DNA of 64,000 nt. It comes from Actinoalloteichus caeruleus DSM 43889. GTDB lineage: Bacteria; Actinomycetota; Actinomycetes; Mycobacteriales; Pseudonocardiaceae. Positions 54,202 through 57,977 of the stretch are shown piece by piece; the stretch's first letter is position 1, and every line of letters starts with the position of its first letter. The stretch spans positions 2,418,001 to 2,482,000 of the forward strand of contig NZ_AUBJ02000001.1 of the NCBI RefSeq assembly GCF_000429185.2, written 5' to 3'. The notes beneath the pieces were generated by a model. The model had not been told where the DNA came from and ran no database searches. It worked only from the letters and a program-made list of their open reading frames with translations. The position numbers were made by a program, and so were the translations under genes.

Positions 54202-54545
54202 GCCGGGCTGGACCGCGACGGCCACCCCCGCCCGCCGAACGCCGGGAGACCCGGCCGAGGAGGTCACCGGTGGAGACCGACGACGCCGCTCCGGGTGTCG
54301 ACCGCGGCGAGGAGGACTCGTCCGCGCGACCGCTCGGTTGCGCGAGGAAACACCGGCCGAACGCCCCCGGAGCGGGTCACACCAGCGCCGTCCCGACCGT
54401 CGACCACCACCCCCGGCCGCTCCGGTGTCGACCACCCGCGTGACACGATCGGAACCATCGAGCCGCTCCCCCCGTCCGATCGGGCACCTACCATCACATC
54501 GGGCGCCCCACGGTCGAGTGGGCGGTGCGCCGTCGGGGGAAGACC
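54202..54545. other. Intergenic region upstream of the TIGR04222-type gene
   Basis: 344 bases with no supported gene. Bases 54440-54500 are less GC-rich and may carry the promoter of the next gene. No hairpin or operator stands out. Confidence 0.4.
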
Positions 54546-55418
54546 ATGACTCAGACCTGGGGCATCAGCGGGCCGGCGTTCCTGGCCCTGTACGCGGTCC
54601 TCCTCCTGTTCGGGCTGCTGCTGGGCCTGGCGATCCCCCGCTGGAGCCGGAGGACGGCGGCGGTGGGGCCGCCGCCCGAGGTGGACGCGCACCGCCTCGC
54701 CTACCTGGCCGGCGGCGCGAGGCGCCTCACCGACACGGTCACCGCCGGACTCATCGCCGACGGCGTGTGGCGCGTGTCCCGGGGCGGGCGGCTGCACGCC
54801 ACCGGCGCGACACCCACCCACCGGCTGCACCTCGCCGCCGTCGAGGTGTCGACGGGCTCGGGCCGCGAACGGCGGCGGCTCAGCCCGGTGGCCCTGATGG
54901 GCACCGTCGCCGCACGGGAACTGCTCACCGACCTCAGGGACCGGGGGTTGGTGGTGCCCTCCGGGCGGCACGCCCTGCGCCTGCTGGCGATGGTCCCGCT
55001 GGACCTGGCCCTGGTCCTCGGCGTCCTCCGCCTCGTGACCGGCGTCAACGCGGGCCGCCCCGTCGGCTTCCTCATCGGGCTGGTCGTCGTGAACCTGGCG
55101 CTGGTCGCGCTCGTGCTCCTCCGAGCACTCCGGGCGCCGGACCGCACCCCGTTGGGGGAGGCCGTCGTCGCCGAAGCACGTGGCCGGTTCCCGGGCGGCA
55201 CGCCGACGACCTCCGCCCGGAGCCGTAGCGGGTCGGCCGCCGGGCCGGCCGCCCTGACCTCGGTGGCGCTGCTCGGCTTCGCCGGCCACCCGGATCCGGA
55301 GGTGCGCGACGCGTTGCACACCGCGAGTACCTCCTCCGGTGGCGGCGGAGGGAGCTCGCACTCCTGCGGCGGCGGCGGTGACAGTGGCGGCGGCGGTGGT
55401 GGTGGCTGCGGCGGGTGA
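54546..55418 (+). CDS. TIGR04222-type membrane protein with Gly/Ser/Cys-rich tail (candidate MNIO substrate)
   Basis: 290 residues. Membrane segments at about 9-30, 145-164 and 172-194; between the first two is a conserved soluble part (EVDAHRLAYLAGGARRLTDT and RLHATGATPT). The body has no cysteine. The last 33 residues are nearly pure Gly/Ser with Cys274 in SSHSCGGGG and Cys288 in the final GCGG. Proteins of the TIGR04222 type with such tails lie next to DUF692 enzymes in many actinomycetes. The tail is thus a plausible modification target. ATG 54546 is preferred over an upstream GTG, having GGGGA before it. Confidence 0.82.
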   Translation: MTQTWGISGPAFLALYAVLLLFGLLLGLAIPRWSRRTAAVGPPPEVDAHRLAYLAGGARRLTDTVTAGLIADGVWRVSRGGRLHATGATPTHRLHLAAVEVSTGSGRERRRLSPVALMGTVAARELLTDLRDRGLVVPSGRHALRLLAMVPLDLALVLGVLRLVTGVNAGRPVGFLIGLVVVNLALVALVLLRALRAPDRTPLGEAVVAEARGRFPGGTPTTSARSRSGSAAGPAALTSVALLGFAGHPDPEVRDALHTASTSSGGGGGSSHSCGGGGDSGGGGGGGCGG

Positions 55419-55494
55419 GCGCCATCTCGGCCCTGGGCAGAAGACCCGGTGACCTGCCCGGAGGCGGTGGGACGATCACCCTGGAGGAGGACAC

Positions 55495-56370
55495 GTGAGG
55501 ACGTCACCCAACACGCCGGAGGAGCCGGCCCCCCGGATCGGCATCGGATGGCGCCCGGAGATCGACCTGACCGTCGAACGACTCCCGGGCGTGGACTTCG
55601 TCGAGGTCGTCGCCGAGAACCTCAGCCCCACCGAACTCCCGGAGTCCATCGAGGTCCTGCGCCGCCGGGGCACCCCGGTCATCCCGCACGCGGTCACGCT
55701 GTCACTCGCCGGGGCCGAACCCGTCGATCCGCGGCGGGTCCGGCACCTCGCCGAGCTGGGCGAGGCGCTGGACGCCCCCGTGGTCAGCGACCACATCGCC
55801 TTCGTCAGGGCCGGCGGCCTCGACGTCGGCCACCTGCTCCCGCCGCCCAGGACGAGGGACGCGCTGGACGTCCTGGTCAGCAACGTCAACGCGGTCCAAC
55901 GCGACCTCCCCCGACCGCTGGCCCTCGAGAACATCGCCGCCCTCCTCGACTGGCCAGAACGGGAACTCAGCGAGGAGCACTTCCTGACCGAACTCGTCGA
56001 ACGCACCGACTGCCTGCTGCTGGTCGACCTGGCCAACCTCCACGCCAACGCGCACAACATCGGAACGACCCCCTCGACGTTCCTGGACACCCTGCCCTGG
56101 GAACGCCTCGCCTACGCGCACGTCGCCGGCGGGGTGTGGCGGGACGGCCTGTACCACGACACCCACGCCCACCCGGTGCCCCGCGAGGTGCTCACCCTGG
56201 TCCGGGAGCTGGCCGCACGCGCACCCGCGCCACCCTGGGTGATGGTGGAACGCGACGACGCCTACCCCACCGACGCGGAGTTGGCCGACGAACTCGCCGG
56301 GATCCGGGCCGCCGCCCTCGCCGGCACCGCCACCCGGTCCCCCGCACGACGGGCCGACGATGACCGCTGA
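55495..56370 (+). CDS. DUF692 / MNIO multinuclear non-haem iron oxidase
   Basis: 291 residues, TIM-barrel of the DUF692 (MNIO) family, which use two or three iron ions to rewrite cysteines in peptides (TglH, MbnB and others). Candidate metal ligands visible: His65 in VIPHAVTLS, Asp99-His100 in VVSDHIAF, Glu145 in LALENIAAL, Asp178 and His183/187 in LLVDLANLHANAHNIG, His209 in AYAHVAGG, Asp222 to His226 in HDTHAHP, Glu252 in VMVERDD. GTG with GGAGG upstream. It lies 76 bases after the Cys-tailed membrane protein and overlaps the next gene by 11 bases. Product unknown. Confidence 0.9.
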   Translation: MRTSPNTPEEPAPRIGIGWRPEIDLTVERLPGVDFVEVVAENLSPTELPESIEVLRRRGTPVIPHAVTLSLAGAEPVDPRRVRHLAELGEALDAPVVSDHIAFVRAGGLDVGHLLPPPRTRDALDVLVSNVNAVQRDLPRPLALENIAALLDWPERELSEEHFLTELVERTDCLLLVDLANLHANAHNIGTTPSTFLDTLPWERLAYAHVAGGVWRDGLYHDTHAHPVPREVLTLVRELAARAPAPPWVMVERDDAYPTDAELADELAGIRAAALAGTATRSPARRADDDR

Positions 56371-56779
56371 CCCCGGGCAGCGGCGCGAAGCCGGGCGGGC
56401 GCTCCCCTCCGACCCGCCCACCCCGGAGGAACCGCTGACGGCACGGCGCGCCGAGCTCGCCGCCCGGCAACGGGCGCTGGTGGCGGCGCTGCTCGGCACC
56501 GGTCCCGTGCCACCGGGGTTCCCGCCGGACCGGATCGCGGCGCAGGCGAGGGCGCTGGTCGCCAAACGCACGCGGGTCGCGGGCCGTCTCCGCCCCGACC
56601 TGGTCGCGGCCCTGGGGGATGCCTTCGCCGACCTGTTCGCCCGTTACGCCGAGGACCACCCCCGCGAGGTGGGGGTCGGCGCCCGCGAGGACACCCGGAG
56701 GTTCCACCGCTGGCTCGTCCGCGAGGGCGCCGTGCCCAGGAGGTGGACGCTCTCCCGGCTCCTCCGCCGACATCGCTGA
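56360..56779 (+). CDS. Small SCO6045-like protein, probable MNIO partner
   Basis: 139 residues. The core RRAELAARQRALVAALLGTG, then VPPGFPPDRIAAQARALVAK and GDAFADLFARYAEDHP is helical and resembles the start of the DUF2063-type partner proteins that recruit substrate to MNIO enzymes; a similar protein (SCO6045) lies beside DUF692 and TIGR04222 genes in Streptomyces. The basic C-terminus RWTLSRLLRRHR is unusual. It overlaps the MNIO stop, so is translationally coupled. The partner role is inferred. Confidence 0.7.
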   Translation: MTADPGQRREAGRALPSDPPTPEEPLTARRAELAARQRALVAALLGTGPVPPGFPPDRIAAQARALVAKRTRVAGRLRPDLVAALGDAFADLFARYAEDHPREVGVGAREDTRRFHRWLVREGAVPRRWTLSRLLRRHR

Positions 56780-56972: not shown

Positions 56973-57977
56973 TCAGTGGACGGTCCGGGTCCGGCCGTCC
57001 CACTCCCCGGCGAGCACCTCCGGCAACATCTCGGCGAGCCGCACCGGGTAGACCGTCACGTCGGAGGCGGCCAGCTCGTCCAGGTCCCACCACCGGTGCC
57101 GCAGGACCGTCCGCCGTTCCAGGTCCGAGAACCCGGAGGTGTCCGGGGCGAGCTGGTCGGCGATCCGCAGGAGGAAGTACCACTCCTCGGTCTCCGTCTC
57201 CTGCTCGTCGAAGCTGTAGACGGCGTACCGCCGCCACACCGGTCCGACCAGCGCCGCCGGGGCGACGGCGAGCCCGGTCTCCTCGGTCAGTTCCCGCGCG
57301 GCGGCCGTCCGGGGGTTCTCACCGTCCTCCACGCCGCCACCGACGGTGTACCAGAACGGCGCGGTCGGCCGGACCGGGTCGATCCCCTCGAAGAGCAGCA
57401 GCCGGTCGTCGGGGTCCACGAGCAGCACGCGGGCGGCCGGGCGCAACCGCAGGCTCGCCGTGCCGGCGGCGTCCATCCCGCCCTCGGGCTCGGCGATCTC
57501 GAAGTAGGTCGGCGGTGGGGCGCCACCCGCCAACCGCAACCACCGCACGGCCCGGTGCCGGCGCAACGCCAGCGTGTCGCGCACCGCGTCGTTGTGCACC
57601 CGCCTGGCCAGGATCACCCGCAGCTCGGCCTCCTCGAGCTCGGCGCGCAGCCCCGGGGACAGCGCGACCCGGTCCCACTCGGCCAGCAACCGCCCGACCG
57701 CGTTCTCCTCGTCCTCCCGCCGGTCGCGGTCGGCCGTCTCCGCCCGGTCGGCCGCGGTGCGCAGCCGGGTCGCCAACGCCTGGTCCGGGCACACCTCCGC
57801 CACGGCCCTGGCCACCACGGACCGGCGCGCCAGGGCCGAGTCCACTGCGGCCCACGCCGCGTCGGTGCGGACGTGCAGCCGGTTCAGCCGGTTCGCGACC
57901 AGCACCGACCACCCACCGAGCACCACCAACGACACCAGCAGCACCAGCGCCAGGGTGAGCAGCGTGGTCACCGTCAT
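56973..57977 (-). CDS. Nudix hydrolase with N-terminal LemA-like membrane part
   Basis: 334 residues. One membrane segment (about 6-26) and a LemA-like helical part (NRLNRLHVRTDAAWAAVDSA) make the first 150; the Nudix domain follows with the Nudix box in GGGVEDGENPRTAAARELTE plus ETGL, that is G-x5-E-x7-REL-x-EE-x-G. Such genes accompany pimA in actinobacteria, but the substrate is unknown. Overlaps the pimA stop by 4 bases, so it is at the end of the PIM operon. Confidence 0.85.
   Translation of the reverse strand: MTVTTLLTLALVLLVSLVVLGGWSVLVANRLNRLHVRTDAAWAAVDSALARRSVVARAVAEVCPDQALATRLRTAADRAETADRDRREDEENAVGRLLAEWDRVALSPGLRAELEEAELRVILARRVHNDAVRDTLALRRHRAVRWLRLAGGAPPPTYFEIAEPEGGMDAAGTASLRLRPAARVLLVDPDDRLLLFEGIDPVRPTAPFWYTVGGGVEDGENPRTAAARELTEETGLAVAPAALVGPVWRRYAVYSFDEQETETEEWYFLLRIADQLAPDTSGFSDLERRTVLRHRWWDLDELAASDVTVYPVRLAEMLPEVLAGEWDGRTRTVH

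Follow-up and report, generated by a model that had tools for sequence, protein, structure and literature searches.

A three-gene unit of actinomycetes in which an MNIO enzyme and its putative partner may oxidise the cysteine-bearing tail of a TIGR04222 membrane protein

The stretch of 64,000 nucleotides from the genome of Actinoalloteichus caeruleus DSM 43889 that we analysed here (in its full length referred to as the window) carries three consecutive genes, designated genes A, B and C, that almost certainly form one unit (Table 1). They encode a membrane protein of the TIGR04222 family with a cysteine-containing Gly/Ser tail, an enzyme of the MNIO (DUF692) family, and a small protein whose gene overlaps that of the enzyme. 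All three genes are present as the first-pass annotation of this DNA, made from the letters alone, had described them.

Table 1. Positions of the three genes and of the candidate substrate tail in the window
Feature	Position	Strand	Length	Basis or remark
Gene A, TIGR04222 membrane protein	54546..55418	+	290 aa	NCBIfam match
Layout of the gene A product				Helix 1 ~13-30; GPP34-like domain ~45-140; helix hairpin ~150-196; Gly/Ser tail
Cys/Gly tail, proposed substrate	55332..55415	+	Residues ~263-290	Ends GGGCGG
Gene B, MNIO (DUF692, PF05114)	55495..56370	+	291 aa	Pfam match, invariant ligand positions
Gene C, putative DUF2063-like MNIO partner (PME-type 2)	56360..56779	+	139 aa	Overlaps the end of gene B

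The gene A product matches the NCBIfam model TIGR04222 with 112.9 bits (cut-off 43), and its only cysteines, Cys274 and Cys288, both lie within the Gly/Ser tail, in agreement with what the first-pass annotation had read from the translation. An in-frame GTG at 54525 offers an alternative start that would add seven residues; we retained the ATG at 54546 because a GGGGGA motif precedes it and because conservation among the relatives sets in there. The AlphaFold2 model of the protein has a mean predicted local distance difference test score (pLDDT) of 83.6, with values of 61, 51 and 48 for the blocks of the tail. Gene B starts with a GTG that is preceded by GGAGGAGGA, and its product scores 252.8 bits against PF05114 (cut-off 25). 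The annotated full set of candidate ligands of this enzyme is borne out by an alignment in which His65, His100, Glu145, Asp178/Asn181, His209, Asp222, His224 and Glu252 do not vary among 57 sequences, that of the window included; by analogy with MbnB and TglH, these residues are taken to be the ligands. Gene C shares 11 bases with the end of gene B, an overlap that makes translational coupling of the two genes plausible. The expectation that its product would be small and helical held (the model is all-helical, pLDDT 88.7). The designation as SCO6045-like is that of the first-pass annotation; Pfam and NCBIfam returned no family so named, and no family exceeded its cut-off in either. The genome contains a single PF05114 match and a single TIGR04222 match over the cut-off, and a tblastn search of plasmids with gene A matched nothing.

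TIGR04222 and MNIO genes are neighbours in many genomes. A survey of 296 genomes from the class detected TIGR04222 in at least 109 of them (84 over the cut-off) and MNIO in 76; at most nine first-look TIGR04222 candidates were scored per genome, and weak TIGR04222 genes may be missed. Counting only matches over the family cut-off, with weaker rows dropped and the split rows of genomes G162, G017 and G087 joined, yields 107 TIGR04222 places; the MNIO places number 86 once the split rows of G177 are merged. For 62 of these 107, an MNIO gene is present at a distance of no more than 6 kb. The two genes share a strand in 62 of 62 cases, MNIO following TIGR04222 in 36 and preceding it in 26; conversely, 54 of the 86 MNIO places are linked to TIGR04222. 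This linkage is far beyond chance, and the absence of a genome-wide association, one of two conditions under which the first-pass annotation would have given up its proposal, did not materialise.

The cysteines of the tail covary with the enzyme, a point that the first-pass annotation had suggested checking. We assigned tails to a Cys class by a rule of our own, namely at least two Gly/Ser-flanked cysteines within the last 80 residues together with a Gly/Ser-rich stretch; the rule misplaces the second gene of G221 and G114:C445 as tailless despite their tail cysteines, and a damaged gene of G034 as Cys class. Of the 50 tails in this class, 42 adjoin an MNIO gene, seven have one elsewhere in the genome, and one has none, this last gene (in G067) bordering on the end of its contig downstream. 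The corresponding numbers for the 57 other tails are 20, 15 and 22, so that an MNIO-bearing genome accompanies 49/50 Cys-class tails versus 35/57 of the others (Fisher p 2e-6). At the level of 33 genera, tail and MNIO occur together in 22, neither in nine, MNIO only in one, and the tail only in one (Fisher p 2.5e-6). A Cys-class TIGR04222 protein is present in 40 of the 54 linked loci. Of the 50 Cys-class tails, 18 terminate in GGGCGG and three more in CGGCGG.

An origin of the Cys tails as chance products of GC-rich repeats was considered and rejected: tails that satisfy a stricter rule (at least three flanked cysteines) were found at 41 of 77 MNIO loci versus 2 of 44 MNIO-less TIGR04222 loci. 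One of these two (L111) belongs to a genome with its MNIO gene on another contig, and the other (L134) lies at a contig edge.

The product of gene C is very probably the partner protein of the MNIO enzyme. Our analysis relied on 57 MNIO loci, 54 of which were chosen for a nearby TIGR04222 gene and three of which were added; from the other 29 MNIO places, 20 were fetched later and nine left out. A further set of 80 named loci partly overlaps the 296-genome sample (e.g., L254/G194), and the two sets are not summed. Gene C alone, used as the query, matched 45 open reading frames (ORFs) in the loci that had been fetched (E <1e-3), and a profile iterated from it detects the partner domain in 57 of the 57 MNIO loci first examined, on which this profile was built. 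The domain resides in the MNIO frame, C-terminal to the enzyme, in 32 of these loci; the other 25 have it in a frame of its own immediately after that of the enzyme. Outside the profile-building set, it was found in 16 of the 20 further MNIO loci, which are not linked to TIGR04222, and in 78 of the 80 named loci, both misses (L227 and L239) ending at a contig edge. The three families constitute a recurring unit, as the first-pass annotation had supposed.

Several observations relate the gene C family to the DUF2063-type partners of MNIO enzymes. Comparison of the partner profile with DUF2063 (NGO1945) gave E-values of 5.2e-4 (31 sequences) and 1.8e-4 (145 domains); the values of eight control comparisons, reversed or unrelated, ranged from 0.057 to 0.9. 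PF09836 is weakly matched by 9 of 31 gene C relatives (best E 0.0059) and is the sole family matched by more than one of them; the relative at L188 reaches 15.3 bits against DUF2063 (cut-off 27.2). Because the gene C family is DUF2063-like in this sense, a role as MNIO partner suggests itself. With 139 residues versus 255-267 in eight DUF2063 partners that we fetched, the gene C product probably lacks the RRE half of these proteins. It lies directly after the MNIO gene and has no Pfam match at E 0.1, features by which PME-type 2 partners, which lack the DUF2063 signature, are recognised, and it is 44% identical to a partner of 115 residues from Saccharothrix sp. NRRL B-16314. The PME-type 2 model A of Antoine et al. 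(2025; PMC12452194) stems from this strain and has the same length, from which we infer that the two are one protein. In another system, an artificial fusion of the MNIO enzyme HvfB with its partner HvfC is active (PMC13419390), and the natural fusions described above consequently argue for a physical complex between enzyme and partner; they represent ready-made single-chain enzymes.

The tail is not restricted to TIGR04222 proteins. Eight single-helix proteins of 83-119 residues carry the same tail (L165-L168, L175, L176, L179 and L182), seven of them encoded between the MNIO gene and the partner gene, and a ninth such carrier is found in Embleya (L243). Two further carriers of about 450 residues have no predicted helix (L173 and L174). 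In total, 10 of the 20 MNIO-partner loci that are not linked to TIGR04222 possess a tail carrier of another kind. Pfam returned nothing for the helix-less carrier of L174 and the single-helix carrier of L166, the two of the 11 carriers that were scanned; some of these proteins may overlap the adjamnio-I-type precursor groups, with 8-21 cysteines, that are among the other Cys-rich precursors of Antoine et al. (2025; PMC12452194). The occurrence of the same tail on unrelated carriers beside MNIO-partner pairs marks it as a module and points to the tail as the part that is modified. The view taken in the first-pass annotation, that the substrate is the tail of an integral membrane protein, describes the window but is incomplete, as it is the tail that recurs, also on single-helix anchors and on the two helix-less proteins.

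Variations on this arrangement were seen at a number of loci. Between two and four TIGR04222 genes precede one MNIO gene in tandem at L185-L188, L193, L194, L201, L207 and others, and in some of these arrays Gly-type and Ser-type tails stand side by side. Genome G034 (L139 and L177) has a Cys-tailed TIGR04222 gene followed by an apparent remnant of the partner with no MNIO gene beside it, together with a partial MNIO match and a partner elsewhere, and looks to harbour a decaying system. Five loci of a Streptomyces-like family that we call f18 (L074, L076, L085, L087 and L093) keep an MNIO-partner fusion and have an adjoining tailless TIGR04222 gene, with another gene between; the latter encodes a DUF4142 protein in L087 and L093, both of the loci tested. 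Four genomes in which a tailless TIGR04222 gene adjoins MNIO possess, far from it, another TIGR04222-like gene whose product has one cysteine near the C-terminus (G063:C8, G106:C27, G116:C1:4159414 and G086:C12:327663), mostly placed in a Gly-rich stretch.

Neighbouring genes were clustered for 33 hand-picked loci at one cluster threshold with ORFs of at least 90 residues. Two clusters recur widely, that of gene A (27/33 loci) and that of MNIO and its partner (33/33); the next one covers 9/33 loci, the window not among them. Since only these two clusters recur in this way, we left the genes that flank the trio in the window out of the unit; the one upstream is EF-G-like, and the one downstream, on the opposite strand, encodes a NUDIX protein. 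Besides the NUDIX domain, the only one that Pfam gives, this protein (56973-57977, minus strand) has some 170 additional residues at its N-terminus, a part that by eye resembles LemA. Three examples of neighbour clusters were annotated, as SelR, as a histidine kinase and as a protein without a family. The gene for SelR (methionine sulfoxide reductase B) lies within the flanks of 9/33 loci (e.g., L184:2546-3043), which do not include the window.

These data lend themselves to an interpretation that we hold with moderate confidence as a whole: the three genes would specify a protein-modification unit that oxidises the cysteines of a cytoplasmic TIGR04222 tail in the service of a metal-related function. 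Operon structure, family linkage, covariation, partner fusions, interchangeable carriers and a charge-based topology are the parts of it that can be read from sequence. The MNIO enzyme and its DUF2063-like partner would form a cytoplasmic complex that recognises the TIGR04222 tail, a C-terminal segment rich in Gly/Ser and dotted with cysteines, and oxidises the latter, here Cys274 and Cys288; that the tail cysteines are the substrate of the enzyme is probable in our judgement. After modification, the tail would stay where its TIGR04222 anchor keeps it, at the inner membrane face. The product that we tentatively regard as likeliest is a heterocycle formed from cysteine, for instance a 5-thiooxazole; the likeliest role, binding or sensing of copper or another soft metal at the membrane, is more speculative still. 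One may go further and envisage a portable MNIO tail, a C-terminal Cys/Gly/Ser tag that marks unrelated cytoplasmic and membrane proteins for oxidation and creates anchored, cytoplasm-facing arrays of heterocycles with no released peptide, an idea to which we give a little less than an even chance. If true, it would represent a post-translational modification of proteins across actinomycetes, and not a classic pathway for a ribosomally synthesized and post-translationally modified peptide. The MNIO products in the literature cited here are peptides, and modification of the tails of full-length proteins would mean that the family also carries out protein modification.

Several points speak against this interpretation and have to be weighed along with its alternatives. 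Modification, product and role are predictions from sequence. Searches of the PDB with the partner model by Foldseek and VIA-align retrieved no structure of an MNIO partner (best Z 2.9; 3DEE and 8HI7 were absent from the structures listed), and a PDB sequence search with the partner alignment gave nothing meaningful (best E 0.5). The gene context lends no support to a copper function: the most widespread neighbour is shared by 9 of the 33 loci, and none of the three annotated cluster examples points to copper. Seven Cys-class tails have an MNIO gene only elsewhere in the genome; under the stricter rule, only the above-mentioned 41 of 77 MNIO loci have a tail ORF, and the two-Cys tail of the window itself fails that rule.

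Among the alternatives, the one that fares best, though we consider it unlikely, leaves the tail as the substrate and assigns another reaction to the enzyme, such as carbon excision, cleavage near the C-terminus or cross-linking, by which a peptide would be released or capped and no heterocycle formed. MNIO relatives act in various ways on cysteine and on other residues (PMC10214503, PMC10880893, PMC13174530), the tails often end in CGG, and the gene B product stays below the cut-offs of the BufB, HvfB and ApyH models, and hence below the threshold for a bufferin maturase. Against this stands the fact that the nearest NCBIfam model is precisely that of the bufferin maturase, MNIO_BufB (181.9 bits, cut-off 310; HvfB, 140.3 bits, cut-off 360), and bufferins carry thiooxazoles derived from cysteine (PMC12452194).

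A second and somewhat less probable alternative holds that the enzyme modifies some other free or small substrate and that the tail is a metal- or protein-binding Gly/Cys segment needed under the same conditions. Its argument, which also counts against the preferred reading, comes from loci in which tail and enzyme part company: 14 of the 54 linked loci have only a tailless TIGR04222 neighbour, 13 of them in family f18 plus L120, and f18 comprises 17 tailless TIGR04222 genes, of which four adjoin a tailed one. The named relatives in this family look to be Streptomyces. Here, tailless TIGR04222 genes adjoin intact MNIO-partner fusions and the ligand positions of the MNIO enzyme are kept although its neighbour has no Cys tail, so that the enzyme may act on another target in f18. 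A hidden Cys-rich gene was not recognised by eye in tailless Streptomyces-like loci (three loci; gaps of five). What disfavours this alternative as an account of the unit at large is the covariation of the tails with MNIO across genera and their recurrence on unrelated carriers in the same operons; moreover, the 33 clustered loci share no other gene widely among ORFs of at least 90 residues (shorter genes were not clustered).

The preferred reading places the tail in the cytoplasm, a location that we predict with good confidence from the distribution of charges. In 177 of 209 TIGR04222 proteins, those with three clear helices (32 with weak helices were dropped, and starts were set by rule), the distribution of Lys/Arg speaks for a tail on the cytoplasmic side in 174. 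The mean number of Lys/Arg residues is 0.66 before and 3.18 after helix 1, 0.68 between helices 2 and 3, and 3.21 after helix 3; the same four segments of the window protein, read from the ATG, contain 0, 3, 1 and 3. Its N-terminus is uncharged and leads into a helix followed by RWSRR, by eye with no Sec signal peptide, the GTG start being possible. Helix 1 is absent from 23 of the 209 proteins, 20 of which are Cys-tailed, and the 19 of these from named loci have no clear helix upstream in frame (maximum 1.08). Where such proteins have a clear hairpin, its outer flanks are more basic than its loop (16/16), and a cytoplasmic N-terminal domain followed by a hairpin leaves the tail inside. The single-helix carriers agree, nine of nine having 4-7 Lys/Arg residues on the side of the tail and 0-1 on the opposite side. 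In the window genome, the TIGR04222 model additionally matches a DUF2207 protein within its DUF2207_C domain (E 1.1e-5), and this homologous domain comes, by eye, after a signal-like start, an N-terminal domain outside the membrane and one helix. A cytoplasmic tail fits a cytoplasmic enzyme, as far as can be predicted, and would need neither export nor a signal peptide. In the opposite placement, the enzyme would still reach the tail in the cytoplasm, prior to membrane insertion or in the course of it, and the modified tail would end up on the outer side like a bufferin. This is the position of Antoine et al. (2025; PMC12452194), who locate TIGR04222 tails in the periplasm from predicted topology, and it gains from the Sec export of bufferins described there and from the upstream GTG, which would put four extra basic residues on the outer side of helix 1 of the window protein, yet the charge balance, the proteins lacking helix 1, the DUF2207_C arrangement and the two carriers with no predicted helix make it quite improbable.

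With regard to known proteins, the anchor domain of TIGR04222 is a distant relative of GPP34/GOLPH3 and not a member of that family, a relation inferred from a comparison of sequence profiles, to which we gave more weight than to structural Z-scores. TIGR04222 compared with actinobacterial GPP34 gave E 1.4e-6 over 88 columns (reversed control, 0.68). GOLPH3 (3kn1) ranked first among structures for the gene A model (Z 7.0, 158 aligned residues, 5.1 Å) and Vps74 (4tu3) fourth (Z 6.2, 147 aligned, 5.3 Å); since unrelated membrane proteins at ranks 2 and 3 are interleaved at similar values (Z 6.5 and 6.4), structure alone decides nothing here. Foldseek with the TIGR04222 model yielded no significant match, GOLPH3 and Vps74 not being among its hits, and the Pfam search with gene A gave no PF05719 match at E 1. 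GPP34 and GOLPH3 do not occur in PMC12452194, and a literature search for GPP34 with actinobacteria listed a single paper, to judge by its title on a different topic. GPP34 and GOLPH3 are cytosolic proteins without the membrane helices and the tail that TIGR04222 adds, while DUF2207 membrane proteins have an extra N-terminal domain, the example in the window genome being devoid of a Cys tail.

The bufferins and captophorins, copper-binding peptides that carry thiooxazoles (PMC12452194, PMC12668002), resemble the unit described here in that an MNIO enzyme and a DUF2063-type partner act on cysteines, BufB being the nearest MNIO model. Unlike in bufferins, however, no Sec signal peptide is apparent by eye in the gene A product when read from the ATG, there is no DUF2282-type precursor, and the proposed substrate is a tail on a protein.

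The closest precedent is the study of Antoine et al. (2025; PMC12452194), which reports more than 3,500 TIGR04222 proteins and proposes subsets of them as MNIO substrates by virtue of their Ser/Gly/Cys tails; the first-pass annotation had thought the system undescribed, and in this respect it was mistaken, the tails being already in print as predicted substrates. The TIGR04222 domain is also named in a bacteriocin cluster in another paper. The clusters of Antoine et al. share with ours the same two families, tail cysteines as the proposed substrate and a PME-type 2 partner. In that study, PME-type 2 partners occur in at least 10% of clusters and many clusters appear to be partner-less, whereas a partner is present in all of the MNIO loci that we first examined, frequently fused to the enzyme; the question raised there, whether and how TIGR04222 proteins are modified in the absence of a recognised partner gene, would thereby find a simple answer, the partner being present in the examined loci. 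Our reading also differs from theirs in that the tail is taken to be cytoplasmic instead of periplasmic and in that further carriers bear the same tail. What our analysis adds to the published prediction is a partner that is nearly always present and often fused to the enzyme, the interchangeability of the proteins that carry the tail, a cytoplasmic placement of the latter, and the relation of its anchor to GPP34.

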